Shown here: one piece after another, positions 5,499-17,604 of the stretch
Position numbering within the stretch: the stretch's first letter is position 1
How the letters are laid out: each line of letters opens with the position of its first letter
IMG/VR virus record: IMGVR_UViG_3300038564_000054
Location: 1-22,487 of that record
Direction: 5' to 3' (one strand)
Source: a virus
DNA length: 22,487 nucleotides
Notes under the pieces: generated by a model
Seen by the model: only the letters and a program-made list of their open reading frames with translations
Told to the model about the DNA's origin: nothing
Database searches by the model: none
Made by a program: the position numbers and the translations under genes

Positions 5499-5735
5499 TT
5501 ATTTAACCCTTATAGTGTCCACTGTTGTTCCGTATGAATTAACCATGTAAGCAACATCACCGCTTGCAAGTTGATAGTCTTCTGCGTGTTCTGATGTGAT
5601 CGTGTTATCACCCATATCATGAACAACGACTTCTAAATCCATAATACCGTCTTCTTGCTTATACTTGCAACTAATAACATTCATGATATTTTTGGTATAT
5701 CCGGCTTTATTTACAATCTTAATTGAGTTCGACAT
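5499..5735 (-). CDS. Small hypothetical protein, first gene of the packaging operon
   Basis: This 78-residue protein starts at the ATG at 5733-5735 with AAAGGAGCAAAA directly upstream, a strong ribosome site. It is mixed alpha/beta by appearance, acidic, with one cysteine and no membrane segment. I do not recognise the family. It is the first gene after the candidate promoter at 5764-5791 and ends one base before the ParB-methyltransferase start, so the two are co-expressed. The stretch MDLEVVVHDMGDNTITSEHA suggests a small beta-sheet domain. A role in DNA modification or packaging is possible only by position. Confidence 0.65.
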   Translation of the reverse strand: MSNSIKIVNKAGYTKNIMNVISCKYKQEDGIMDLEVVVHDMGDNTITSEHAEDYQLASGDVAYMVNSYGTTVDTIRVK

Positions 5736-5763
5736 TTTTGCTCCTTTTTCTTTTTATTGCTAA

Positions 5764-5791
5764 ATTATACCACTTTTAAACACCAGGCCAA
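5764..5791 (-). promoter_or_regulatory. Candidate sigma70-type promoter for the packaging/fibre/portal operon
   Basis: Reading the minus strand, TTGGCC (5786-5791) is followed by a 16-base spacer and TATAAT (5764-5769). A TG dinucleotide one base before the -10 box (TGGTATAAT) makes it an extended -10 promoter. The first gene starts about 30 bases downstream. The element lies after the terminator at 6126-6148, as expected for a new transcription unit. Confidence 0.65.
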
Positions 5792-5834
5792 GTAAATTAA
5801 TCTAACTTTTTGATTTTAAAAGGCTTAATCATTT

Positions 5835-6119
5835 GCGGTAACAATAAAACAGGTTTTGTTACCCCTTGTTACCTCTTTTGTTACCTCTGCAACCATTGGT
5901 TTTAAAGGCTTGTAGTAGTAGTAGTAACAAAAGTAACAATATTTATATATATATATAGAGAGATATATTAATCTCTATATGCCTTTATTACTATCTATAT
6001 ATCTATTTTTGCGGAAAAGTGTTACTTTTGTTACCTTTGCACATAAGTTGTTGATTTTAAAGGTATTTAGCGGTAACAACACTTGTTACTACTACGTTAC
6101 TGCGGTAACAAACCGTTAC
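5835..6119. other. Candidate replication origin: GTTAC/GTAAC iteron-like array
   Basis: The interval between the primase-helicase and the packaging operon has no gene across about 420 bases. It holds 13 GTTAC or GTAAC pentamers: GTAAC at 5838, 5924, 5933, 6073 and 6105; GTTAC at 5858, 5868, 5880, 6021, 6030, 6085, 6096 and 6115. Longer copies recur: GCGGTAACAA at 5835, 6070 and 6102, and TTTTGTTACC at 5854, 5876 and 6026. The two groups flank an AT-only tract with a hairpin (5953-5980). Clustered short repeats beside an AT-rich tract and next to a replication gene is the classic arrangement of an iteron origin. Function is inferred; an operator array for a phage regulator is the main alternative. 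Confidence 0.6.
5953..5980. repeat. AT-rich inverted repeat in the centre of the candidate origin
   Basis: The arms ATATAGAGA (5953-5961) and TCTCTATAT (5972-5980) are perfect 9-bp complements around a 10-base AT loop. The surrounding 5938-6010 is almost only A and T. There is no T-run suited to a terminator on either strand, so unwinding at an origin is a better explanation than transcription termination. Confidence 0.75.
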
Positions 6120-6125
6120 TCCAAT

Positions 6126-6148
6126 AAAAAACCCCACATTAGCGGGGC
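6126..6148 (-). terminator. Rho-independent terminator after the replication operon
   Basis: On the minus strand the stem CCCCGC/GTGGGG closes a TAAT loop and is followed by six T. It lies seven bases after the primase-helicase stop codon. It would end the early/replication transcript before the candidate origin. Confidence 0.88.
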
Positions 6149-6154
6149 AATTAT

Positions 6155-8758
6155 TTAGCCTATAACGGAATCAATCGGAATCTTAATACATCTGGATTTT
6201 GTGCCGTTAAAACTTACTAACCCAGCTTTTAATGCTCCATCTAATCGGATCAAAACTCTAGCCCAACCAGAACCCCAAGCCGTATCATTTAAAATACGTT
6301 TTAATTCGCTGTGATTGTTCGCAACGTAAATATAACCATCTTCAATAATAATCCCATAACGTCTGAGAATTTGCCCAGCGTCCATATTATGCAATTTATT
6401 ATCCCCTGAACTACCTGCCGCAATTTGCACAAACTCGGATATAGAACGATTGTAATTGAACCCGTCTACTTCTGCCCTTATTTGGTGTTGCATAATCGTG
6501 TGAATTAATCGCTCTTCATCACGCACATCTTCAGATTCTTGCGCTTCGGTAAAGTCAATTTTCTTAACGTATTCTCTGGCGTTCTCTAGGCTTATTTCTT
6601 CGTCTGATACATAAGCAAGCGCCCCAGATAATAAAGCGCCGTATTGATCGCCCATTCGTTGCGAGCCAAGATATTCAGCAATGGCACGTCCAATTACTTT
6701 AGCGTTGTGTCTTATCACCGGAATCATTTTGTAAGCCCTAGCGCGTAAAGAAGCTGTTAGTTTATCGGTTAAAAGGTTGTTGACGTGTTTTTCAAACTTA
6801 TGAAACTTATCAACTTCTGATTTAGATTTATCATGCTTTTTTAAGCTTAATACGCTTATGCGTGATTCGTCACTTGCCTGGTTGATTGCCACGTTAATCG
6901 AGCCAAACATAAACATGGAGCGAATAAAGAAAACCATCGCATCACCGCCCGCCGTTCCTTTAGTAATACCGCTTGATGAATTACTTGAAGCTTGTCTGGC
7001 CAACTCGATAACGGATTGCATTCTTCTGCGTCCTTGTTGGTCTTCAGATTCTGACTCATCAAATATAACCGCTCGCCCATCTTGTTTAAGCGTTTGGCGT
7101 ATTCCGGCTTCTGTTGTAGAGCCTTGAGTTCTAAATGCACCTTCGCCAACTATTCGGTCAACGATAAACTCTTGAATCCAACTTTTACCTGTACCCCTTG
7201 AGCCTGTGAGCCAAATATGTGGCCGCCAATCAAGTGCCGAGCAAATAGGTGCGAGAAAACACCAACCCGCCAGTAAATGCCCACTTATTGACTTATCAAA
7301 ATTCAACTCTCTAAATACATCAAATACCTGCCCAGCTTGCTCAACGGTTGCCGGAACTGTATCAATATTAGACTCTATTGCAGGCGCTAGTTCATAAATA
7401 AAACGCGTGTTAAAATCATGAATCTTAGTTATTTCACCGTCAACAATAAGGTTAGAACCAATATGTAAAACAGAACGGTTTAAATCGAACCATGCACCAC
7501 GCCCTCTAATCCTAGCCGGGTCAAATAATCCAACTCGCTCCTGGTGTCTGAATAGATAATCGGTTGCGAAAGTCCAATCTTCTTTTTCACCTTGAAAAAA
7601 CACCGACTTCCACCAGTCAAGAGAAGCAATCGAAAGCAAGTGTGTTTTAGAACCCATCGAGCCACGACTAATAGAAATAATCTTATTGGTTTTGGTTGGT
7701 AAGAAATAAAACTCATCACCAGAAAAACCTAAGCATCTAAACTGTGGATCATGTAAGTTGCTTTGTGCTGTCGTTTCCTTTTCCTGCTTAACTTGTATCG
7801 GTTCATTAATTTCAAACGTGTCATATTCATGCGTTTCAGTTGGTTCTTCTGTTTTATTATGAGTAAGCTTGGCAAGATATAAATTAACCGCTTCTTCACC
7901 TTCTAAGGCGTATAAATCATTAAAATCAGTAGGCTTTGTTTCCAGGTTTGTAAACTGTGGCAATCTATACTCGCAACCAGTCAACTCCGCCGCTCTGGAA
8001 GCATAATATAAACCAGGATTCTCAACCTTACCTTTAACCGTGTTGACACTACTCCAACGATCGTTATCAGCCGCAATAATAATACGCTTGTCAGGGTATG
8101 ACTTTTTAAGATGTGAAGCAACCTCCAAAAGATTACCCGTTGAAAAAGCCACCGCAACCGCTTTGCCCGTTACAGCGTGAATGGTTGCGCCTGTCGCATA
8201 TCCCTCAGCAATATAAATAACATCGTCAGGCGTACCAATCGAACAATATACTTGCTTAGTGGTTGAGCCTTTAACGTATCTTTTAAAGTTATTCGCATAA
8301 ATAATCTGCATCCCAACAACTTTGCGCTCTCTGCTATACATTGGAATCAATATTAAATGGCGCTTATGTGATCTAAACTCTTTTAAGCCCGTGTTTGCTA
8401 TTTGCTTTTTATTTAGATATGGGTGTATTGTGCAATGATTTGCTTTTGCGTAAAACCTGGCGATTCGTTGCCCGCTTCTTTGTTTACGCTGTAATTCACG
8501 TTGTTTAGCATACTCCCTACGCTCTTCTATTTGCTTTCGTTCCGCTGGCGATAATTGTGTGCCGCCATCAGCTTTCCAAATATTGCGAATGTCTGGTTCT
8601 GTCCAATCACCATAAACAACCGTTTGCGGGTTATCGTAGGCAATATACCAACCATTTTTTTTATTACGCTTTGTCTTAAACCTGTGAATGCGTCCATCAA
8701 ATACCACGTTTGGGGGTGATTCGATTCCGCTTGCTTGCATGTGTTGTTGATAGTTCAT
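6155..8758 (-). CDS. Toprim primase-helicase fusion (replication initiation)
   Basis: This 867-residue protein carries a primase-like N-terminal half. A beta region (residues 18-52, VVFDGRIHRFKTK) resembles plasmid TraC-type primases. The Toprim domain lies around 178-285, with E185 (YIAEGYATG) and D231/D233 (IAADNDR). The C-terminal half is a DUF927-like ATPase: Walker A GSRGTGKS at 519-526 and Walker B VIFDESES with D567 and E568. I see no CHC2-type zinc finger at the N-terminus, so primer-site recognition may differ from DnaG. Residues 300-340 look like a flexible linker. It overlaps the VRR-NUC gene start/stop by four bases and lies beside the candidate origin, which fits a replisome role. 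Confidence 0.85.
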   Translation of the reverse strand: MNYQQHMQASGIESPPNVVFDGRIHRFKTKRNKKNGWYIAYDNPQTVVYGDWTEPDIRNIWKADGGTQLSPAERKQIEERREYAKQRELQRKQRSGQRIARFYAKANHCTIHPYLNKKQIANTGLKEFRSHKRHLILIPMYSRERKVVGMQIIYANNFKRYVKGSTTKQVYCSIGTPDDVIYIAEGYATGATIHAVTGKAVAVAFSTGNLLEVASHLKKSYPDKRIIIAADNDRWSSVNTVKGKVENPGLYYASRAAELTGCEYRLPQFTNLETKPTDFNDLYALEGEEAVNLYLAKLTHNKTEEPTETHEYDTFEINEPIQVKQEKETTAQSNLHDPQFRCLGFSGDEFYFLPTKTNKIISISRGSMGSKTHLLSIASLDWWKSVFFQGEKEDWTFATDYLFRHQERVGLFDPARIRGRGAWFDLNRSVLHIGSNLIVDGEITKIHDFNTRFIYELAPAIESNIDTVPATVEQAGQVFDVFRELNFDKSISGHLLAGWCFLAPICSALDWRPHIWLTGSRGTGKSWIQEFIVDRIVGEGAFRTQGSTTEAGIRQTLKQDGRAVIFDESESEDQQGRRRMQSVIELARQASSNSSSGITKGTAGGDAMVFFIRSMFMFGSINVAINQASDESRISVLSLKKHDKSKSEVDKFHKFEKHVNNLLTDKLTASLRARAYKMIPVIRHNAKVIGRAIAEYLGSQRMGDQYGALLSGALAYVSDEEISLENAREYVKKIDFTEAQESEDVRDEERLIHTIMQHQIRAEVDGFNYNRSISEFVQIAAGSSGDNKLHNMDAGQILRRYGIIIEDGYIYVANNHSELKRILNDTAWGSGWARVLIRLDGALKAGLVSFNGTKSRCIKIPIDSVIG

Positions 8759-9111
8759 ATTCTTGCTTCTAACTCCTGTATTGCTTCTTCTGCTGAACGA
8801 GCTATATATCCTATACCATTTTTAGCATTAACGGCATTAATAAAATTGATTTGCTCGTCTGTTGGTTTTCCTTTAGGCGTTTTAACCTCAACCGCTAAAA
8901 ACCGCCCGCAAGGTGTCAAGCCGATTAAGTCACTTGAGCCAACACATAAACCTGACTTTATAAAACTTGCATTATCAAGTGTTACCTGACTTGCTTGTTT
9001 AAATAAAATACGACCAGCCCAAACTCCAGCCGATTCGTTACGCCACATAATACAACCCGCTTTTGATAATGCTAGTTGAATCTCTTTTTGTATTGTTGCT
9101 TCTGATTTCAT
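8755..9111 (-). CDS. VRR-NUC domain nuclease
   Basis: This 118-residue protein is a single VRR-NUC fold of the PD-(D/E)XK superfamily. Visible active-site residues are E10 (TIQKEIQLAL), D61 (GSSDLIGLTP) and E75-V-K77 (FLAVEVKTPKGK). The ending INAVNAKNGIGYIARSAEEA is also usual for phage members. Such stand-alone VRR-NUC proteins are thought to cut branched DNA such as replication forks or Holliday-like structures. It lies between the SF2 helicase and the primase-helicase with four-base overlaps on both sides, which suggests the three act together on replication or recombination intermediates. Length matches stand-alone phage members. Confidence 0.88.
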   Translation of the reverse strand: MKSEATIQKEIQLALSKAGCIMWRNESAGVWAGRILFKQASQVTLDNASFIKSGLCVGSSDLIGLTPCGRFLAVEVKTPKGKPTDEQINFINAVNAKNGIGYIARSAEEAIQELEARI

Positions 9112-10547
9112 CTTTTCAAGTCCTTATATATTCTTTTTGCTTCTGCTCTTAATTCATAACTTGGTTTATGTCCTTGTCTGCTTGCATATATATGACTAGC
9201 CCAACCATCTGGCGATTTCATATCTCTACTTATGCCAAGCTTAATCAGGTCTTCTAATCCTCTGGCCGCTCCCTGCTCTCGTTTTTTCACCATCTTTATC
9301 TGTGCTTTTTCTACTTCTATAAGGTCGCCGTCTACTTGTTCAATTGCCTGTCGTTTTTGTGCTGTTACTTCACCACAATTTGGACATTCAGGCGAATTAA
9401 TTGGTTGATATACAGCATAACATTTTGGGCATTGCTTAATTCGCAAGTCTTGTTCTTTCTTGCGTTTGCCTTTTTTACGACTGCCTTCTAATGACCATTG
9501 ATAGGGTGAATCTGGTAAACCTAGCAATGGATCAAGCGAATTACCAACATGATCTAATATTATTAACTTGTCTTTATCTTTATGCGGTCTTAAACCACGC
9601 CCAATGCCTTGTCTCCATACAATCAATGATTTTGTTTTACGCAACCATTGTACAACCTCAATTTTCGGAATATCTAACCCTTCCAAAAATAAATCAACCG
9701 ATGTTAAAACGTGCGTTTTACCATTTCTTACTCTATCAAGTGTCGCCTGGCGTTCTTTGTCTGTGTGGCTTCCGTCTAGTTGCTCGCAAGCGATACCTGC
9801 TTGCTGATACATATCTGCAACGTGTTTGGCATGCTCAACCGTTACGCAAAAAACAATGCAAGTCTTTCCCATTGCATGCTTTCGATAATGTTCAATTGCA
9901 TCGCCTGTTATTTTTGCCTTGTTTGTAATATCCGCTAATTCTTTTTTATTGTAATCACCTGCAACGGTATGCACACCACTTACATTAACCATTGATGGCG
10001 GTGCTAACAAACGATAATCACATAAAAAACCCATGTCAATTAACTGCCTAACATCAACTTCTTCAACTAAATGGCTATAAATATCACCAAGCCCGCGACC
10101 ATCTGAGCGTTCTGGCGTTGCTGTCAATCCAATCACCGTTGCATCTGGATAAGCATCTAGCATCTTAATGTAAGAAGGCGAAACTGAGCGATGGCACTCG
10201 TCAATGATAATAAGATCAGGCGCTTCTACTTTATCCAACCTATTAACAAGCGTTCCGATTGATGCAATTAGTATTGGTTGGTGGCTTGTGCGTTTACCTG
10301 ACTTTATTTGCCCATGCTCTAAGTGTTGCTTCCACATTGCGCCGCTTGTTTGTTTTAGTAATTCGTTTCTATGCACTACAAACATACAACGCAAGCCTTT
10401 TTTGCTTGCTGTGTCCATCATGTGAACGGTTAAAGCTGTTTTTCCAGCACCGGTTGGTGCTACGAGTAAAGTCCTCTTATGTTTGTTTATAATTGCTTGC
10501 CTTGTGCTGTTTATAAGGCTTTCTTGATATGGCCTAAGACTTAACAT
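9108..10547 (-). CDS. SF2 DEAD/DEAH-box helicase with C-terminal zinc ribbon
   Basis: I choose the ATG at 10545-10547, preceded by ACAGGAGAAATACTA. An upstream in-frame ATG (10569-10571) lacks a ribosome site. The 479-residue protein has Walker A APTGAGKT at 30-37, a DECH box at 116-119, motif III LTATP at 141-145 and motif VI QGIGRGLRP at 313-321. A basic linker (SRKKGKRKKEQ) leads to a four-cysteine zinc ribbon: C373, C376, C388, C391. The architecture matches phage helicases related to the RecG/UvsW/type III restriction group, which unwind forks or branched DNA. The C-terminal tail after 400 is helical and of unknown role. Its gene overlaps the nuclease gene by four bases. Confidence 0.92.
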   Translation of the reverse strand: MLSLRPYQESLINSTRQAIINKHKRTLLVAPTGAGKTALTVHMMDTASKKGLRCMFVVHRNELLKQTSGAMWKQHLEHGQIKSGKRTSHQPILIASIGTLVNRLDKVEAPDLIIIDECHRSVSPSYIKMLDAYPDATVIGLTATPERSDGRGLGDIYSHLVEEVDVRQLIDMGFLCDYRLLAPPSMVNVSGVHTVAGDYNKKELADITNKAKITGDAIEHYRKHAMGKTCIVFCVTVEHAKHVADMYQQAGIACEQLDGSHTDKERQATLDRVRNGKTHVLTSVDLFLEGLDIPKIEVVQWLRKTKSLIVWRQGIGRGLRPHKDKDKLIILDHVGNSLDPLLGLPDSPYQWSLEGSRKKGKRKKEQDLRIKQCPKCYAVYQPINSPECPNCGEVTAQKRQAIEQVDGDLIEVEKAQIKMVKKREQGAARGLEDLIKLGISRDMKSPDGWASHIYASRQGHKPSYELRAEAKRIYKDLKR

Positions 10548-10579
10548 TAGTATTTCTCCTGTAAAAACCATATAACAAT

Positions 10580-11143: not shown

Positions 11144-11171
11144 TTTTATTTCTCCTGTTTGTTCAGTGCCT

Positions 11172-11199
11172 ATTATATACAGTTTTGAATATAAGTATA
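11172..11199 (-). promoter_or_regulatory. Promoter cassette copy P3
   Basis: The minus strand reads CAAAACTGTATATAATAGG, with TATAAT at 11172-11177 and only a weak -35 (TATACT, 11194-11199). The leader GAACAAACAGGAGAA follows and contains the ribosome site of the 54-aa gene. The same CAAAACTGT box, -10 and leader occur at P1 (about 17.25 kb) and P2 (about 15.15 kb). Confidence 0.72.
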
Positions 11200-11202
11200 G
11201 TT

Positions 11203-11415
11203 TTATCTTATATATTTATGCCTGTATTGTAATTCACAAAACGCTTTTGGCGGTTTCATGCTATCTGGGCGTATGATTTCAAGCGGTAATATCTTGTAAT
11301 CAGCGCAAGCTTGCAACTTTACCACATCAAGGCCATCGTTATCAATAATGGCGACACGATAGCCATTTTTATTTGCTAAGTCCTGGGCTTCTTTTAATGC
11401 TTCTATTAAGTTCAT
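11203..11415 (-). CDS. Small hypothetical protein
   Basis: This 70-residue protein starts at the ATG at 11413-11415 with only a weak AGAAG upstream. It looks alpha/beta: a helix (LIEALKEAQDLANKNGYR), then a strand (VAIIDNDGLDVV), then a Pro-rich segment. It has two cysteines far apart and no recognisable motif. It is the last gene before the P3 cassette, and its stop lies about 25 bases upstream of the -10 box. I cannot assign a function. Confidence 0.6.
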   Translation of the reverse strand: MNLIEALKEAQDLANKNGYRVAIIDNDGLDVVKLQACADYKILPLEIIRPDSMKPPKAFCELQYRHKYIR

Positions 11416-11431
11416 TATATTCTTCTATTAT

Positions 11432-11644
11432 TTAATCTTTAAACGCCATTCTAAAATCCATGCATCTATCTAGCTCACGCTTAATGACGTTATAACTATC
11501 GAACTTAGCCATAATTTCAAAAGCGGCTCTCTGTGCTTTTTGTGGTAAATGTAGAAAACGGCAATCGCCACCATCCACCTTGTCAAATTCTGCTAGTTCT
11601 TCTTTTTTCTTTTTGTCTAAGTCAATTAAATTTAGGTTAATCAT
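11432..11644 (-). CDS. Small hypothetical protein coupled to the methyltransferase
   Basis: This 70-residue protein starts at the ATG at 11642-11644 and overlaps the methyltransferase stop as ATGA, so its translation probably depends on that gene. It is charged and mainly helical: a Lys-rich start (LIDLDKKKKEELAEFDKV) and a long helix (QKAQRAAFEIMAKFDSYN). Two cysteines are present but not in a metal-binding arrangement. I see no known domain. A helper role for the methyltransferase is possible only from coupling. Confidence 0.6.
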   Translation of the reverse strand: MINLNLIDLDKKKKEELAEFDKVDGGDCRFLHLPQKAQRAAFEIMAKFDSYNVIKRELDRCMDFRMAFKD

Positions 11645-12258
11645 GCTGTACCTCCAAACATATCAATTTGCGCAGTATCTTTTTTAAAACGCTTACAAGC
11701 TAAATCGTAGTAATGCTTATCTATTTCCATTCCTACAAAATCATAGCCTGCGTAATGCGCGGCAATCGCGCTTGATGCTGAGCCAAGATGTGTGTCTAGG
11801 ATTTTGTCACCAGGTTTAGCGTATTTGTCTAGTAACCACTGATAGAGCTTTACTGGTTTTTGGGTTGGGTGAAAACGGTCAAGTTGATTAGGGCTTAATT
11901 TAAATATTCTCGTCCCACCTTTGCTAATCCATGCATACTCGCACTCAGCAAAATCACGTCCGTACATTGTCTCGCCTTTATCCCATATCGCAAAATATTG
12001 ACTCTGCGGAAGTTCAAAATAATTGCCGCCCCAAATAACCTGGTTCTTAGAAACACGGAAAAGCTCTCTAAAATAAATATCTTCAGGAATGCTTTTATCC
12101 CAGTCTTTTTTTGTTGGTTGCACTGTCTTTCTGCCACCCATATTCATGCTATTAACATCTATCCCATAAGGCGGGTCAACAATAGCCAAATCAAAAGCGT
12201 TATCAGGTAGGTCTTTCATGTAATCCATGCAATCAATATTTAGCAATTCAATACTCAT
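11641..12258 (-). CDS. DNA methyltransferase (N6-adenine or N4-cytosine, beta class)
   Basis: This 205-residue protein is a compact methyltransferase. DPPY is at 28-31 and precedes the AdoMet-binding motif DTHLGSAS (155-162), the order of the beta class; HPTQKP is at 130-135 and GMEID follows at 176-180. DTHLGSAS replaces the more common D-x-F-x-G-S-G form and is frequent in phage members of this family. The target-recognition region between 35 and 125 is short. It would methylate phage DNA, probably against restriction. It is the second DNA methyltransferase in the window. It starts as ATGA over the stop of a 46-aa gene. Confidence 0.92.
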   Translation of the reverse strand: MSIELLNIDCMDYMKDLPDNAFDLAIVDPPYGIDVNSMNMGGRKTVQPTKKDWDKSIPEDIYFRELFRVSKNQVIWGGNYFELPQSQYFAIWDKGETMYGRDFAECEYAWISKGGTRIFKLSPNQLDRFHPTQKPVKLYQWLLDKYAKPGDKILDTHLGSASSAIAAHYAGYDFVGMEIDKHYYDLACKRFKKDTAQIDMFGGTA

Positions 12259-12395
12259 TCTGCACCTCCATCAATCAATTCATCATATTCTTCAACACTC
12301 AAGTTCATAGCTTGTTCAGCTTTGATTTCAGTTTGAATACCTGCTTTAAGCCTTTCGTTATCACGTTGTAATTGTCTATATGATTTCTTTTTCAT
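12255..12395 (-). CDS. Very small helical protein, 46 aa
   Basis: The ATG at 12393-12395 has AAGGA about nine bases upstream, and the frame ends in a TGA that overlaps the methyltransferase ATG (ATGA). The 46-residue product has a basic, helical first half (KKKSYRQLQRDNERLKAG) that could form a short coiled coil and an acidic second half ending in EEYDELIDGGAE. It fills the gap between two enzymes exactly and is therefore probably real. The split-charge pattern suits a small partner or inhibitor, but no family is recognised. Confidence 0.65.
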   Translation of the reverse strand: MKKKSYRQLQRDNERLKAGIQTEIKAEQAMNLSVEEYDELIDGGAE

Positions 12396-12404
12396 GCCAT
12401 ATCC

Positions 12405-13190
12405 TTACTTACAAAAACACCCGATAGGCTGTTCATCTTCAAACATTGATAATTGCTCACTGCTCATTCTTGATATTGATTTCACTTCAATAGCAACTTT
12501 ATCTAATCCATCTGCTTTAAATCCATTGACTGCATTAAGCTGTTTATATTTTTTATCCATGCTTTCTAGCTCTTGCCATAAATCAGGGTAATGCTCATGC
12601 AGTTTTGCCAATGACTTTGTGCCTTGTTTCGGGCATAACCAACAACCAGTGCGGTTAAAGTGGTTGTACAGTGGATTAAATAATCCTCGCTCTTTAAGTT
12701 CTTCGCCTGCCATGTCTTCTGTTACCTGCCAAGTAACCATTGGGTAAATCTTATTTTTCCAATCAACAGGAATTCGTTTAGGCTCGTCAAAAGCAATACC
12801 TATGTAATAGAAGACATCACAATCTTTATAATGTTGTTTTATGTAGTTCTGTACTGGATTTACTTTTAATTCCCTTGTACACCAGCTCATGCCTAATTCA
12901 GCAGGAAAGCCTCTAACACGGCCTTCGTAATTTCCTTTTGTAATTTCTCCATCAGCCCATTTATCCCAAATATCACGGCCTTTACCCCAGTTAATAAGCG
13001 TTATTTTTAAGTCAGGGTATTTTGATTCCCAATAAGTTTTGCATTTTTCAATGTAGTCGTACATTTCGGGAAACTCAAAGCCAGTATCACAAAAGATAAC
13101 CTCGTCTAATGGATCGCCACGTTTTAACAATTCATCAACTAAATACGTTGAATCTTTACCGCCAGACCATTTAGCTATATATTTTTTCAT
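12405..13190 (-). CDS. PAPS-reductase-family PP-loop enzyme
   Basis: This 261-residue protein has the PP-loop SGGKDS at 9-14, which binds ATP or an adenylyl group, and FCDTGFEFPE at 33-42. WCTRELK places C104, and TGCWLCPKQG places C183 and C186; these three may hold an iron-sulfur cluster, as in related sulfur-transfer enzymes. GIAFDEPKRI (131-140) matches a further conserved element. The C-terminus ends with C258 and C260. It belongs to the phosphoadenosine phosphosulfate reductase superfamily, which includes CysH and the DNA phosphorothioation protein DndC. Its role in phages is not settled: sulfur assimilation, nucleotide or DNA modification are all proposed. It overlaps the upstream gene as ATGA. 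Confidence 0.85.
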   Translation of the reverse strand: MKKYIAKWSGGKDSTYLVDELLKRGDPLDEVIFCDTGFEFPEMYDYIEKCKTYWESKYPDLKITLINWGKGRDIWDKWADGEITKGNYEGRVRGFPAELGMSWCTRELKVNPVQNYIKQHYKDCDVFYYIGIAFDEPKRIPVDWKNKIYPMVTWQVTEDMAGEELKERGLFNPLYNHFNRTGCWLCPKQGTKSLAKLHEHYPDLWQELESMDKKYKQLNAVNGFKADGLDKVAIEVKSISRMSSEQLSMFEDEQPIGCFCK

Positions 13191-13693
13191 GCCATCGCCC
13201 TCAATTTATCAAGTGCTTTTGGATTTGTGCCTACTATGTGCATAGAAAAATATCTATTTTCTTCTAGTTCTTGAAGCTCATACTTGTTCAGCGGTCTATC
13301 TGCTTTAATGGTTGATGCAGTCGTTTCTTCTACGGGCTTAGTTTTTTTTCTGATTCCGTTCTTCTGTACAAATCTATCTATAGTTCTTTTGGTTGTGCCA
13401 AAATGCTCAGATACTTTTTGAGCTGAAAGGTTTTTAGTAACATACAGTTCTGTTACCTTTTCTTTTGTTTTTATTAACTCGCCATTTATCCACCAGCTTG
13501 TTTCTTCCGCACCTCTTTTTTTGTATTCGCCTTTTCTGAAATTACGGTTAAAATAACTAACAGAGCCTTTATTAATACCTAGAATTTCTGCAATCTCTAT
13601 CTGCATTAAGCCTTGTTTTTCAAGCTTGGCTATCTTTTTTTGAGCTTGCTTTAATGTCATGCCTGCTTTTTTAATCCAGTTCGGTTCTCTCAT
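13187..13693 (-). CDS. DNA-binding protein with two helix-turn-helix motifs
   Basis: I take the ATG at 13691-13693 (168 residues), which overlaps the preceding stop as ATGA and has GGGGGA just upstream. A TTG four codons earlier is less likely. The first HTH lies near 28-50 (GLMQIEIAEILGINKGSVS). The second lies near 86-112 (KNLSAQKVSEHFGTTKRTI). A basic segment (KKKRG-like, 58-61) and a charged C-terminus follow. Two HTH units in series are seen in homing-type or regulatory phage proteins that recognise extended sites. It could be a transcription regulator or a DNA-targeting factor. I see no nuclease motif. Confidence 0.8.
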   Translation of the reverse strand: MREPNWIKKAGMTLKQAQKKIAKLEKQGLMQIEIAEILGINKGSVSYFNRNFRKGEYKKRGAEETSWWINGELIKTKEKVTELYVTKNLSAQKVSEHFGTTKRTIDRFVQKNGIRKKTKPVEETTASTIKADRPLNKYELQELEENRYFSMHIVGTNPKALDKLRAMA

Positions 13694-13872
13694 AAATTCC
13701 CCCAAAGTTTTTCAAATTCCTTAACGTGTTGTATGTCTTCAATACGTCTTCGGATTTTGTTTCTTTGCTTGGCTTTCTTACTGACTTTTGATGGTTGATA
13801 TTCTGGTTTAGAATTTGCATAAACAATGGAAGGCCTGCCTTGTTTGTTTAGCGGATTTTCTTTATTTATCAT
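13690..13872 (-). CDS. Small basic hypothetical protein
   Basis: This 60-residue protein is strongly basic (SKVSKKAKQRNKIRRRIED) and probably disordered in its first half, with a short helix at the end. It starts at the ATG at 13870-13872, overlapping the MazG-like stop as TAATG, with AAGGATGA upstream. The charge suggests nucleic-acid contact. It overlaps the double-HTH gene by four bases, so both may act together. No family is recognised. Confidence 0.65.
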   Translation of the reverse strand: MINKENPLNKQGRPSIVYANSKPEYQPSKVSKKAKQRNKIRRRIEDIQHVKEFEKLWGNL

Positions 13873-14174
13873 TATTCATCCTTCACAAATAAGCCGTTTA
13901 CCATTTTTCCTGTACGCTTACTGATAACACTGTAAGCCTGCTCAAGACATTCATTTATTGTTGTACCATTCAAGTATGCCTGAATAATCAAAGTCACTAC
14001 AATGTCACCTATTGCGTCTTTAATATCATGATCGTTGCCATCAACTAAAGCTTGAAGCAACTCTGTCACCTCTTCCTGGGTTTTAATGTGTTGCTTTAGC
14101 GGTGTTGAGTGCTTAATTATGCCTTTTTTCTCCGCCCATACCACAACTGCCATTTGCAATTCTTCCATATTCAT
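13872..14174 (-). CDS. MazG-like nucleotide pyrophosphohydrolase
   Basis: This 100-residue all-alpha protein carries the MazG pattern: an acidic cluster at E34, E35 and E38 (QEEVTELLQAL) and a second at D53 and D57 (KDAIGDIVVTL) that together bind magnesium. The second cluster has Asp-Ala where larger MazG proteins have Glu-Glu, a variant common in phage members. The family hydrolyses (d)NTPs to monophosphates, and in phages it is thought to adjust nucleotide or alarmone pools. Length fits the short, single-domain MazG-like group. Four bases separate it from the DUF3310 gene. Confidence 0.83.
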   Translation of the reverse strand: MNMEELQMAVVVWAEKKGIIKHSTPLKQHIKTQEEVTELLQALVDGNDHDIKDAIGDIVVTLIIQAYLNGTTINECLEQAYSVISKRTGKMVNGLFVKDE

Positions 14175-14177
14175 TAT

Positions 14178-14438
14178 TTATTTTCCTTCTAAATAATCTA
14201 TAACGTGGCTTAAATACCATTGAGCCTTCTTTAAATCTTCCAGGCCGTTCTTATTTTCGTATCGGCTAACGTATTTGATAACATTGCCAATCGTATAATT
14301 TATATTGTTTGCCTCGATATACTCAAGCGGGCTGATTGCCATCTTAGTGTAATGATTTGGCTCTATTGGGTTGTTGTGTTGTTCCATGCGCTCAAATTCT
14401 CTTTCTTCTTCTGGTGTTGCTTGTTTAATATCAGTCAT
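14178..14438 (-). CDS. DUF3310 protein (SaV-like)
   Basis: This 86-residue protein has the DUF3310 signature: PNHYTKMAISPLEYIEAN, then NVIKYVSRYENKNGLEDLKK and QWYLSHVIDYL. Short DUF3310 proteins occur in many phages, often with nucleotide-metabolism genes, and have been annotated as nucleotide-kinase-like, without firm biochemistry. The first 20 residues are acidic and probably flexible. It lies next to a MazG-like gene, a pairing that supports a role in nucleotide pool control. Confidence 0.87.
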   Translation of the reverse strand: MTDIKQATPEEEREFERMEQHNNPIEPNHYTKMAISPLEYIEANNINYTIGNVIKYVSRYENKNGLEDLKKAQWYLSHVIDYLEGK

Positions 14439-14782
14439 TAGTATTTCTCCAATATTTCTCTATGCGAAACGGGTATTCTTTTAACTTCAAACTCAAAGCC
14501 ATGCTTTTCAACTAAATCGGCGATATAAGTATCACAATTTTCATCTTCGGCATTAATGGCGTTTACGTCATCAGTCCATTCTTTAAACCATTTTCTTAAT
14601 TCGCTGATCGTTCCGGCTTCTTTTGCTTGAATCTCAAACATACCAACAATCATGTCGAACTTGCTAGACCAATGGTTATTAAGTCGCATGAGTTCCATTT
14701 CGTGTATTTGGTTTTTTAACGCAATCTGATCTAATAACTTTTGATTTTGCTTTTTTAATCTATCTATTTTTAACATACTCAT
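14438..14782 (-). CDS. Hypothetical coiled-coil protein
   Basis: This 114-residue protein has a long N-terminal coiled-coil region (DRLKKQNQKLLDQIALKNQI) with heptad-like Leu/Ile spacing. An acidic C-terminal domain includes DDVNAINAEDENCDTYIADL. It starts at the ATG at 14780-14782, two bases after a 38-aa gene, with AAGGACGG upstream. It is probably an oligomer. I do not recognise the family, and no enzymatic motif is visible. Confidence 0.65.
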   Translation of the reverse strand: MSMLKIDRLKKQNQKLLDQIALKNQIHEMELMRLNNHWSSKFDMIVGMFEIQAKEAGTISELRKWFKEWTDDVNAINAEDENCDTYIADLVEKHGFEFEVKRIPVSHREILEKY

Positions 14783-14784
14783 AA

Positions 14785-14901
14785 TTAACCGTCCTTCTTA
14801 ATGCTTCTTCTGTTGATCCAATAACAATCATTTGGCAAAGTTTTTAACATCGTATGACTTACAACCAAAGTAATTAGCCAGTCGGCTTTACGATCACCCA
14901 T
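14785..14901 (-). CDS. Very small protein, 38 aa
   Basis: The ATG at 14899-14901 overlaps the stop of the upstream gene (TAATG), AAGG lies about 12 bases upstream, and the frame ends two bases before the next ATG. The product MGDRKADWLITLVVSHTMLK has a short hydrophobic middle (DWLITLVVSHTML) and a basic tail (WINRRSIKKDG). The hydrophobic part is too short for a safe membrane call. The precise fit between two genes is the main argument that it is real. No family is recognised. Confidence 0.55.
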   Translation of the reverse strand: MGDRKADWLITLVVSHTMLKTLPNDCYWINRRSIKKDG

Positions 14902-15122
14902 TATTTATTACCTTCCATGTAATAATCAAACGCTTTTTCTCTTATTTCTAGTTTTGATTTATGGGTAATATCTTCAACCATTAAAAACCCGTCTTTACCA
15001 ATGTCGCCTTGTTCGCAAGCGAAATCAATATCAGTCCAATGTGGGTATTCATCAAAATCTTCATCTTCGTATTTGACCATTAAGAAAATAATGCCGTTCC
15101 AATTATAATCAAACTCTTTCAT
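14901..15122 (-). CDS. Small acidic hypothetical protein after promoter P2
   Basis: This 73-residue protein starts at the ATG at 15120-15122, preceded by ACAGGAGAAGAAACA. It is very acidic and aromatic-rich in its first half (MVKYEDEDFDEYPHWTDIDF). A helix follows (KLEIREKAFDYYMEGNK). Strongly acidic small early phage proteins sometimes mimic DNA and inhibit host nucleases or polymerase; that is a possibility here, not a finding. It is the first gene behind the P2 cassette. No family is recognised. Confidence 0.65.
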   Translation of the reverse strand: MKEFDYNWNGIIFLMVKYEDEDFDEYPHWTDIDFACEQGDIGKDGFLMVEDITHKSKLEIREKAFDYYMEGNK

Positions 15123-15149
15123 TGTTTCTTCTCCTGTTGTTTAGATCCT

Positions 15150-15177
15150 ATTATACACAGTTTTGTATATAGTTAAA
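15150..15177 (-). promoter_or_regulatory. Promoter cassette copy P2
   Basis: The minus strand has TATAAT at 15150-15155 and a weak -35 TTTAAC (15172-15177, 16-base spacer). The box TATACAAAACTGTGTATA overlaps the -10 and is itself an inverted repeat (TATACA, six bases, TGTATA). A leader with AACAGGAGAAG follows. CAAAACTGT, the -10 and the leader are shared with P1 and P3. Confidence 0.75.
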
Positions 15178-15180
15178 TAC

Positions 15181-15348
15181 CTAAATTCTCTTAATTTCAA
15201 CCACTGGTTTATAAGGTTTACCATCAATAAACACAACCCCGTATTTAATCCAGCGCGTGATATGCATCGGTGTGACTTCCATTTGACGGGATAGTTCGGC
15301 TTGCGAACCACATCGAGTAATTGCGTCTTTTATATTTTCTAATTTCAT
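15181..15348 (-). CDS. Cro/YdaS-like small DNA-binding protein, 55 aa
   Basis: The ATG at 15346-15348 overlaps the upstream stop as ATGA, with AAAAGG about 13 bases upstream. The 55-residue product begins MKLENIKDAITRCGSQAEL. Residues 16-33 (QAELSRQMEVTPMHITRW) form a typical helix-turn-helix: a Q-A-E-L-S/A-R first helix and a T-x-x-x-I-T-R-W recognition helix. The tail GKPYKPVVEIKRI would form a beta strand used for dimerisation in Cro. Such proteins are single-domain repressors. The gene ends right before promoter cassette P2, so it is the best visible candidate to bind the repeated CAAAACTGT box (inference). Confidence 0.82.
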   Translation of the reverse strand: MKLENIKDAITRCGSQAELSRQMEVTPMHITRWIKYGVVFIDGKPYKPVVEIKRI

Positions 15349-15557
15349 TTTTCAAACCTTTTTGCATAACAAGTATTTAACTTGATTCTCATGTCGTTTT
15401 TTTCTTCTGTTGGCATTGCTTCCAACTTTATCTTTATATCGTTCAACATCATAGAGCGCACCATTTTATACGCCCTAAACCATCGTTGTTTATCTATCTC
15501 AATTGCTTGTTGTTGCTCCTGAGATAGATCGCACAAATTAGAATGGTGCTGAAACAT
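15345..15557 (-). CDS. Small hypothetical protein
   Basis: This 70-residue, mostly helical protein starts at the ATG at 15555-15557, inside the last 20 bases of the SSB-like gene, without a clear ribosome site, so it probably depends on translational coupling. Its Gln-rich start (LSQEQQQAIEIDKQRW) and the helix KMVRSMMLNDIKIKLEAM are the only notable parts. A later start at MVRSMML (residue 33) is possible. Its stop overlaps the Cro-like ATG. No family is recognised. Confidence 0.55.
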   Translation of the reverse strand: MFQHHSNLCDLSQEQQQAIEIDKQRWFRAYKMVRSMMLNDIKIKLEAMPTEEKNDMRIKLNTCYAKRFEK

Positions 15558-15930
15558 CGCTAAAGCCTACGTTTGCAGGTTGTTGCGGTTGCTGTTGCAT
15601 TGGTTGTTGCATCTGCTGTTGCGGTTGCATCTGCTGTTGTGGCTGATGTATTGGTTGTGATTGCTGGGTTGGTTGTGGTTGTTGGCCTTGCTGATTAGGT
15701 TCAAACATAGAACACATTACAGAGCTTTTTTGTGGTTGACCGCGTTCAACTGCGATTTGATTTTGTAGCATTAAGCACCCTGCTAAATCAACGGTTGGTT
15801 CGATAATCATGAACTGGCCGTTATCGCCTTGCATAACAACACCTAATTTCGTATAGCGTCCTTTTTCGTTTCCGTCTGTTCCAATGTAAGAACCTGTTTT
15901 AATTACTGCATCATATAGTTTTGTCGCCAT
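15538..15930 (-). CDS. SSB-like protein with Gln/Pro-rich linker and aromatic C-terminal tip
   Basis: This 130-residue protein starts at the ATG at 15928-15930 after GGAGAGTTAAAA. Residues 1-76 form a small beta-rich domain (KTGSYIGTDGNEKGRYTKLG) that could be an OB fold. Residues 78-119 are a low-complexity linker of Gln, Pro and Met. The protein ends GFSDVSAPF, close to the acidic-aromatic tip (DDDIPF) through which bacterial SSB recruits partners. Domain order, length and position beside a RecE-like exonuclease all fit a phage single-strand binding protein. The globular part does not show an obvious SSB family signature to me, so the assignment is tentative. Confidence 0.6.
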   Translation of the reverse strand: MATKLYDAVIKTGSYIGTDGNEKGRYTKLGVVMQGDNGQFMIIEPTVDLAGCLMLQNQIAVERGQPQKSSVMCSMFEPNQQGQQPQPTQQSQPIHQPQQQMQPQQQMQQPMQQQPQQPANVGFSDVSAPF

Positions 15931-15942
15931 TTTTTAACTCTC

Positions 15943-16347
15943 CTATTGAGTTGGTTGTTGTAAAATTAAAGGTTGTACTGTAAAAGGTTTACGCTTCCCG
16001 CGTGATGCGGTTAAGCTTATTTGCATAGGTTGTTGCAAGCCTGTTAAGTGGCTTATTCTGATACCCCCTACGGCTTTTCCTGCCCATGTAACCGTTGGGT
16101 CACAATATAAGGTTATCCCCTGGCCTGCCCACATTGAGGAATCAGTACCCCAAGCGGTTGCGAGTACGCGCCCCATTGATTTGCATGGCTTATAAGGTCG
16201 GCTAAAACCTTGAAGCCAAATTGAGATAGGTTGATCGCCTGATTCGCGAACGTCCACCTGCTGAATAATATAAGTCATTGGTGATACTATTAAATCATCG
16301 GCATTAAGTTGGTCGCTTTTGGGTTGCAGAGCGTGTGAAACGTCCAT
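15943..16347 (-). CDS. Conserved phage protein linked to the RecE-like exonuclease
   Basis: This 134-residue protein starts at the ATG at 16345-16347 with AGGAGATTAAATAAA upstream. It begins MDVSHALQPKSDQLNADDL and includes FSRPYKPCKSMGRVLATAW and KAVGGIRISHLTGLQQPM. I recall such proteins in many phages in the recombination/replication area, usually without a name. It is beta-rich and ends with a basic segment (SRGKRKPFTVQPL), consistent with nucleic-acid contact. It lies one base after the exonuclease stop, so co-translation is likely. No RecT, Erf or Sak protein is visible in the window, so this or the SSB-like protein may serve the exonuclease (inference). Confidence 0.65.
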   Translation of the reverse strand: MDVSHALQPKSDQLNADDLIVSPMTYIIQQVDVRESGDQPISIWLQGFSRPYKPCKSMGRVLATAWGTDSSMWAGQGITLYCDPTVTWAGKAVGGIRISHLTGLQQPMQISLTASRGKRKPFTVQPLILQQPTQ

Positions 16348-16348
16348 T

Positions 16349-17215
16349 TTATTTAATCTCCTGTTCTATTTCTTCTTCGTATTGTTCAATAGCCCATGAT
16401 GGCAAGCTAATATCTTCTAAAGCTTGATTAGGCATTGGCCAATAGTCTAGTTCTAACGCTTTTGTATATGATTGTAAATTCTTTTTAAACTCATGCGCAC
16501 CGATTAACACAGACTCCTGCGACAACTGCCAGACCTTATTAAAATATGGCGATGTTGTTTCAACGGCGATAAAAATAAACGTATATAACGGCTTTTTAAA
16601 TACTAGCTTATAAACATAAGCATAGAATGCATTTTGCACATGATAACGATAATCATATATTGACCGAGAAAAATCTCTCTCGTTTGCTGACCTTGTTGTT
16701 TTTAAGTCAATACCAAAGCCATCGGTTGTTAAATAATCAAAACGACATTTCAACAATGCGCTTGTTGTTGGACATTTAGCAAACAAAGATAATTCGCTGT
16801 AACCGTCTTTATTAAGTAACTCAGATGCATCTTTATTAGATAATACTTGCTCTTGCAACGATCGGACAAGATTTGCTTCTTTTGATGTTAATACGTTGTC
16901 TTTACCGTATTCTTTAACCGCTTCTTTATATTCCGCCTTTCGTTTATCTTCAACGTGTTCTAAAAGCATATAATCTTTTTCAAATAAATGCGGTTCTAAA
17001 ATAGCAGAGTGAATAATCGTACCCATGCGCATTGATGGAGTTGATTCGCTAGATTCTTTGAACTTGTAATGAGCTGGTGACTTGTTAATTAAGTCTAAAC
17101 CAGATTTTGAAATCCCTGGCGATGAATGGTAAACATCGTTTGGAATGTCATAAACGCCGTGCAATTGGTTTAAAACTGAATCAATCTCAAATTGTGATTG
17201 TGTTTTTATTTTCAT
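16349..17215 (-). CDS. RecE-like exonuclease (PD-(D/E)XK, DUF3799-type)
   Basis: This 288-residue protein has the layout of the exonuclease VIII C-terminal domain. An N-terminal Tyr-rich segment (VYDIPNDVYHSSPGISKSGL) leads to GTIIHSAILEP with H69. The catalytic core has E141 (YSELSLF), D160 (CRFDYL), D170 and K172 (GIDLKTTRS) and Q194 (YHVQNAFYAY). These are the usual metal-binding and catalytic positions. It would resect double-stranded ends 5' to 3' to start recombination-dependent replication. It is the first gene after promoter cassette P1, with a leader containing ACAGGAGAAG. Length is normal for the stand-alone phage form. Confidence 0.9.
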   Translation of the reverse strand: MKIKTQSQFEIDSVLNQLHGVYDIPNDVYHSSPGISKSGLDLINKSPAHYKFKESSESTPSMRMGTIIHSAILEPHLFEKDYMLLEHVEDKRKAEYKEAVKEYGKDNVLTSKEANLVRSLQEQVLSNKDASELLNKDGYSELSLFAKCPTTSALLKCRFDYLTTDGFGIDLKTTRSANERDFSRSIYDYRYHVQNAFYAYVYKLVFKKPLYTFIFIAVETTSPYFNKVWQLSQESVLIGAHEFKKNLQSYTKALELDYWPMPNQALEDISLPSWAIEQYEEEIEQEIK

Positions 17216-17241
17216 TTTCTTCTCCTGTTTGTTCGGGAATA

Positions 17242-17271
17242 ATTATATAACAGTTTTGTTTATCCTGTAAA
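17242..17271 (-). promoter_or_regulatory. Promoter cassette copy P1
   Basis: The minus strand has TTTACA (17266-17271), an 18-base spacer and TATAAT (17242-17247). The box ACAAAACTGT lies just upstream of the -10, and the leader GAACAAACAGGAGAAG leads into the exonuclease ATG. This copy has the best -35 of the three and is probably the main early promoter. Confidence 0.8.
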
Positions 17272-17314
17272 CACTTTTGAATATAATTTTTTATTGTTTA
17301 CATTGGTAATTTTA

Positions 17315-17563
17315 TTAGTTATCTGGAACTGTGCCGCTAACAGGTAAATGCTGTGGGATATTAATATCTTTTAGATAGTGTTCTGACTTGCCAAGCTCTT
17401 CTGCTCTATACCTTAGCTTGAGCAATGTTTTTTCCAGGCTTGATATGTGAATACCTAAAGCTATGGCGGCTTTTTGCTGTGATAGGTGGTCAATGCAAGC
17501 TTGCACTTTGTTGCGTTTGTTTTATGTGGTGCAAATTTCCAATAAAAAATTGTAATCAATCAT
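17315..17563 (-). pseudogene. Small HTH regulator gene interrupted by an in-frame TAA
   Basis: The ATG at 17561-17563 has an excellent ribosome site (AGGAGTAAAAGAAA), but the frame stops after 13 codons at a TAA (17522-17524). The same frame continues at once and stays open for 69 codons to 17315. It encodes QQKAAIALGIHISSLEKTLL, a helix-turn-helix of a common type, then a charged tail. The only plausible restart is a GTG at 17504-17506 (63 residues) without a clear ribosome site. The simplest reading is a full-length HTH gene of about 82 codons with a nonsense mutation. Alternatives are a 13-residue leader peptide followed by reinitiation, or a sequencing error. It lies between the lysis terminator and promoter P1. 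Confidence 0.6.
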
Positions 17564-17582: not shown

Positions 17583-17604
17583 AAAAAACCGCATAAAGCG
17601 GCTT
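17583..17604 (-). terminator. Rho-independent terminator after the lysis genes
   Basis: On the minus strand CCGC/GCGG (extended by one G-U and two A-U pairs) encloses a TTTAT loop and is followed by six T. It starts three bases after the stop of the last lysis-region gene and would separate the late transcript from the early region. Confidence 0.87.

Follow-up and report, generated by a model that had tools for sequence, protein, structure and literature searches.

What is the function of the short box that stands just before the -10 hexamer of three minus-strand promoters in this phage fragment, and which protein might read it? The stretch analysed, here called the window, is the complete IMG/VR record, a linear fragment of 22,487 bases with no near matches among 50,697 phage records. 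The original prediction described a single promoter-leader cassette used three times (P1, P2 and P3) and interpreted it as a coordinated early regulon with one regulator.

All recognisable genes of the window lie on the minus strand. Read from the highest coordinates downwards, lambda-like tail genes are followed by probable lysis genes including an M23-type peptidase, exonuclease VIII (16349-17215), a conserved 134-aa protein, a gene for a small helix-turn-helix (HTH) protein, a series of small genes that includes MazG, a PAPS-reductase-like protein and a DNA methyltransferase, a helicase (9108-10571), an endonuclease, a primase (6155-8758) and, at lower coordinates, a ParB/methyltransferase and then the large terminase. 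Two intrinsic terminator-like hairpins are predicted on the same strand, one (17586-17604) ending the tail/lysis unit just before P1 and the other (6131-6148) following the primase gene at the end of the P1-P3 unit. Because the other minus-strand terminator-like hairpins between these two lie only inside genes, P1, P2 and P3 most likely share one long early unit in which P2 and P3 are internal promoters; that the unit is early we infer from its gene content. An integrase was looked for in nine records, the window plus eight related records of which two measure 67 and 73 kb, and was found in none; since most of the nine are fragments, this does no more than suggest a lytic life.

Exact copies of the box, CAAAACTGT, number three in the window, all on the minus strand (17258-17250, 15165-15157 and 11187-11179), where Markov models of order 1-3 expect 0.3-0.4 copies; for the box followed after one or two bases by TATAAT the expectation is about 0.0005, again against three observed. 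The box had been placed directly before TATAAT, and the three sites hold, with a gap of 2 nt at P1 and 1 nt at P2 and P3 instead of none. The longer word CAAAACTGTNTATAAT is found without mismatch at P2 and P3, and its match count at up to three mismatches was reached by no shuffle. The same site thus recurs at several promoters beyond chance, as in an operator set.

The promoters differ in quality. P1, the first promoter of the exonuclease/replication unit, has the core TTTACA-18-TATAAT (17242-17271, minus strand), which matches sigma-70 at 11 of 12 positions and is the strongest between 4 and 20 kb; its exact box lies in the -35/-10 spacer, within the putative operator O1, ATAAACAAAACTGTTA (17248-17263, minus). 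At P2 the putative operator is ATATACAAAACTGTGT (15155-15170, minus), overlapping the -10 TATAAT (15150-15155, minus), and the box is enclosed, as originally described, by the inverted repeat TATACA-N6-TGTATA (15169-15152); the first gene downstream is 14901-15122 (minus). At P3 the corresponding elements are ATATTCAAAACTGTAT (11177-11192, minus) and a TATAAT at 11172-11177 (minus). The weak -35 boxes ascribed to two of the copies are those of P2 and P3, where by reading at best 3 of 6 positions match, while P1 is the exception already given. The dyad of the sites is weak (7 of 9 pairs at P2, 5-6 of 9 at most others), with an ACA-N4-TGT core in most of them. Just upstream of P1, a minus-strand reading frame (17315-17563) that has a good ribosome-binding site and encodes an HTH-like stretch is broken by an in-frame TAA 13 codons past its ATG, after which the same frame stays open for more than 63 further codons.

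Downstream of the box, the leaders measure 26-28 bases from TATAAT to ATG, and all three hold ACAGGAGAA, so that the common end sequence noted after TATAAT is indeed there. The run of bases shared exactly by P1 and P3 is GAACAAACAGGAGAA, which has 15 bases and not 14; it contains the ribosome-binding site of the P1 leader (17216-17241, minus) and recurs in that of P3 (11171-11144, minus), the P2 leader (15149-15123, minus) having ACAGGAGAAGAAACA. ACAGGAGAA also stands before the helicase gene of the window (10562), without a box, ACAGGAGA is found in the ribosome-binding site of gene 15943-16347, and the helicase leader of the related fragment L008 equals the P2 leader over a run of 20 bases, AACAGGAGAAGAAACAATGA. 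As ACAGGAGAA precedes helicase genes that have no box, the leader was rejected as a special element and does not belong to the promoter cassette; it is best read as a strong but generic ribosome-binding site, used at several genes and lying outside the regulator's site. An Rfam scan gave nothing above threshold, and hence no known RNA element in the leaders.

Further evidence for a functional site comes from L008, a fragment of 13.6 kb whose proteins are 67% (primase), 54% (exonuclease) and 76% (134-aa protein) identical to those of the window. It is the only closely related fragment found that carries the box region, L007 and L009 sharing the primase but ending short of it. Three matching promoters are present. 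S1 (ATTAATCAGTTGTGTATAATAGG...ACAGGAGAA) precedes the exonuclease unit, S2 (ATTATCAGTTTTGTATATAAT...AAGGAGAAA) immediately follows the homologue of the small HTH gene, and S3 (TTAAACAAAACTGTATATAATA...AAGGAGAAA) stands just ahead of the homologue of the P2 gene. The S3 box has the orientation seen in the window and is identical to P3 over 17 bases, though the genes downstream are not homologous. The boxes of S1 and S2 have the opposite orientation; taken from the other strand these sites are TATACACAACTGAT and TATACAAAACTGAT, and they then agree with P2 at 11 and 12 of 14 bases, against about half in the direct reading. The scan of relatives that had been proposed was borne out in L008, where a matrix built from the three window sites alone, without the -10 hexamer, ranked S2 and S3 first and second; S1 was detected only by a six-site model whose training set included it. 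By reading, the -35 hexamers of S2 and S3 match at 4 of 6 positions. The site is therefore conserved at the promoters of a relative, and, this being the one relative in which the box was found, its conservation rests on two phages.

The six-site model also revealed something that the original count of the boxes, otherwise right, had missed: a second, weaker copy upstream of P1, ATATTCAAAAGTGTTT (O2, 17284-17269, minus), located at the upstream edge of the -35 and 21 bp upstream of the P1 box. It scores 15.6 bits, a value matched by 1 of 2000 flank shuffles, and its L008 counterpart TTAAACAAAATTGTTT, 22 bp from S1, was matched by 4 of 2000; in each of the two genomes this second site is the fourth-ranking match of the matrix. 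With the same matrix and flank shuffles no second site was found near P2, P3 or S2, and S3 has only a weak hint of one (9.5 bits, 24 of 2000 shuffles). In L008 the exonuclease and helicase starts diverge and the pair occupies the space between them, its second site running into the likely -35 of the helicase, and a divergent promoter probably drives the helicase operon there. In the window, whose helicase block points the opposite way from the L008 arrangement, a plus-strand TATAAT (17282-17287) abuts the inverted O2 and could be a remnant of such a promoter. The helicase-endonuclease-primase block (6155-10571) is co-directional with the exonuclease block in the window and divergent from it in all of L008, L011, L012 and L014-L018, so that the lineage of the window has probably inverted or moved it.

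Further afield the box was not encountered. In six more distant relatives (L011, L012, L014, L015, L017 and L018, primase identity about 45%) no site scored above 14.6 bits, and no homologue of the 55-aa HTH protein was found in these six; several distant relatives seem, by eye, to have another HTH reading frame by the exonuclease. The box and the HTH gene thus appear to come and go together, which is consistent with their pairing, in few phages. Scans of IMG/VR for the pattern of the direct cassette returned L008 and, as single matches, L005/L006 and L090/L091. The single matches were judged to be chance, L090/L091 having no match to any window protein and L005/L006 being absent from the loci that match three or more window proteins. 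The inverted pattern returned L008 only, searches with the HTH protein, the P2 gene and the 134-aa protein gave no further phage with the box, and a primase profile run against 84,980 bacterial and archaeal genomes found no relative.

The proposed regulator is encoded by the last gene before P2 (15181-15348, minus), a 55-aa protein whose L008 homologue is 49% identical and occupies the same place, ending right before S2. Its AlphaFold2 model (pLDDT 81.5, with low confidence for the C-terminal 7 residues) has the predicted order b1-a1-a2-a3-b2-b3 (E3-5, H6-13, H16-23, H27-36, E39-41, E44-46). The best structure match of this model is lambda Cro (Z 6.6, rmsd 2.5, 52 of 55 residues); the twelve best PDB matches are all lambda-type Cro proteins (Z 5.2-6.6), and folds unrelated to Cro reach at most 3.5. 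A lambda Cro fold is accordingly what the model predicts; the Foldseek E-values are not significant (best 0.12). Pfam scores stay below the cut-off, with YdaS at 25.6 bits (cut-off 30) for the window protein and P22_Cro at 14.9 (cut-off 30.2) for the L008 homologue, and for this reason the protein is called Cro-like and not assigned to a family by sequence; a partial match to PHROG 35, "transcriptional repressor", was obtained with an E-value of 5e-6. The 55-aa protein is the best candidate for a regulator that would bind the box.

The regulon reading of the three promoters is probably right: the conservation of the box in L008, the inverted copies, the tandem pair and a candidate with a Cro fold all point to one regulator. 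A shared regulator of some kind, with the boxes as its operators, is quite likely; a site that occurs in either orientation, is paired at the first promoter at a distance of about two helical turns and covers the spacer and the -10 edge would suit a dimeric repressor. The complete statement, in which a dimeric Cro-type repressor has the box as its operator and is the 55-aa protein, can be held with somewhat less assurance and is still favoured. The protein would be made early from P1 and accumulate, and would then bind a pseudo-palindrome of 14-16 bp with the core ACA-N4-TGT. At P1, P2 and P3 the bound sites would cover the -35/-10 spacer together with the upstream border of TATAAT, so that the protein would jointly shut off the promoter of its own gene and those inside the recombination/replication operon, P1, with its two operators 21 bp apart, acting as the master promoter and P2 and P3 having one each. 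Binding, repression and timing are all three inferred.

The original prediction had left room for a box needed for activation. The rival considered here is an activator site or a host-polymerase element of the extended -10 type (TGTR), either of which would offset weak -35 hexamers. P2 and P3 do lack a good -35, and TGTR precedes TATAAT in five of the six promoters, P1 having TGTTA. However, the TG misses the canonical extended -10 position by one base (a TG one base upstream of TATAAT is absent at P1 and, by reading, at P2 and P3), P1 carries the box twice and yet its -35 is the best of the region, and the -35 hexamers of S2 and S3 match at 4 of 6 positions; neither the CAAAACTG core upstream of TGTR nor the inverted copies would be needed by an extended -10. 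Activators normally sit at or upstream of the -35, and this box extends over the spacer as far as the -10 edge. An activating role is thus improbable. A LexA box, CTGT-N8-ACAG, was also considered and rejected, ACAG being by reading at the required spacing in none of the six promoters. Since a weak -35 is not a trait of box promoters, the TG is out of position and a LexA box is missing, repression is favoured. A rival reading changes only the main ligand of the operators. Lambda-type Cro and CI share operators, and the record is a linear fragment of 22.5 kb, so a CI-type repressor or another regulator from the unsequenced part of the genome might be the main ligand, with the 55-aa protein competing at some sites or acting elsewhere; the different HTH gene that distant relatives seem, by eye, to have between helicase and exonuclease adds to this. 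Cro proteins also need not bind every operator, that of phiKO2 binding one of five (PMC4997575), which counts against the full reading. Against such a ligand, a scan of 30 window proteins revealed nothing recognisable as CI-like, the window and its eight related records yielded no integrase, and the 55-aa gene adjoins a box promoter in both phages. This explanation is unlikely, if less so than activation.

A last explanation dispenses with a shared regulator: the promoters would be alike through duplication of a promoter-leader segment that moved with gene blocks. The gene order in L008 gives some colour both to it and to the earlier proposal that the cassettes may be hot spots for homologous exchange. 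The window has the order HTH gene, P2, gene 14901, whereas in L008 the HTH gene and S2 are followed by a ParB-like gene, a gene of unknown function and a PAPS-reductase/DUF3440 gene, and then by S3 and the homologue of gene 14901; relative to the window this is an extra three-gene block bounded by two cassettes. By sequence reading, P2 shares the upstream TAACTAT with S2, and the orientation of its box and its downstream gene with S3. The 20-nt identity of the P2 leader with the L008 helicase leader also speaks for duplication. Exact runs shared between the window cassettes do not exceed 15 nt, however, the likeness is confined to the box, the -10 and the ribosome-binding site with divergent bases between them, and inverted boxes could not arise by simple duplication of a cassette, which makes this the least probable account. 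Fifteen bases of identity are too little for ordinary homologous recombination, and the hot-spot proposal is not supported by the sequence identity within the window. A recombination joint at the cassettes is weakly suggested by the one L008 block that does end at them.

The favoured reading, a Cro-like repressor acting on its own early promoters, resembles lambda Cro with OR/OL in several respects: a small HTH repressor with a predicted b-a-a-a-b-b Cro fold, early promoters overlaid by pseudo-palindromic operators, a first promoter with two operators spaced by about two helical turns and, in L008, an operator pair between divergent early units. It differs from lambda in that the Cro-like gene stands at the end of a recombination-gene block and not beside cI, and in its single operators inside internal promoters of one operon; the half-sites of lambda are of the TATCACC type, unlike TATACAAAACTGTNT of the window. 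In bacteriophage P1 one repressor, C1, serves many operators over several promoters of the genome; C1 is large, has asymmetric sites and keeps lysogeny, unlike the 55-aa Cro-like protein of this fragment, which has no sign of lysogeny genes. The stoperators of mycobacteriophages are likewise short sites repeated genome-wide and bound by one phage regulator (PMC9283540), but they also end transcription elongation at many sites, whereas the window sites all lie inside promoters. In the N15/phiKO2 Cro system there are five 16-bp operators with a T-A-N10-T-A motif; this Cro is all-helical, and that of phiKO2 binds only OR3 (PMC4997575). Nothing directly comparable was found in the open-access literature on lytic phages with dispersed Cro operators. 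Early promoters under a Cro-like repressor are of a known kind, and the dispersed layout is unusual.

These results would provide a concrete regulator-operator pair for an uncultured group of tailed phages without a close match in the reference phage collection, one in which a Cro-like repressor seems to run dispersed single operators in place of one OR/OL switch. The same 50 bp would link regulation and modular gene exchange if the cassettes serve as block joints as well. The most far-reaching version, in which a CI-less Cro-fold repressor exerts feedback on a whole operon of a lytic phage through single operators in successive promoters, each free to flip its orientation, the operator-promoter unit serving as the joint of gene blocks, is speculative and rather doubtful.

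Several observations lie beside this argument. The early regions of the window (12405-13190) and of L008 (2064-4346) hold differing PAPS-reductase-like genes near ParB-like or methyltransferase genes, that of L008 bearing DUF3440, and such genes are possibly linked to DNA modification. Between the primase and gene 5499-5735, a noncoding stretch (5736-6154) densely filled with short repeats around an AT-rich core is probably the replication origin and has counterparts at L008:11882-12228, L009:5508-5858 and L007:4110-4460. The repeat word is GTAAC in the window (13 copies, 0.8 expected), TGTAACA in L007 and L009 (11 copies) and GTATAC in L008 (10 matches, counted over both strands of the palindrome), and so differs between relatives though the primases are 67% identical. 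Lastly, three promoters of distant relatives (L012:694(-), 10915 and 13253; L016:694(-), 10915 and 13186) carry a different box, AACTGGTCAAACCAC, 18 bp ahead of TATAAT-like hexamers; its TGGT-N3-ACCA dyad is reminiscent of FadR-type GntR operators, and it gives a putative second set of promoters with a repeated operator.
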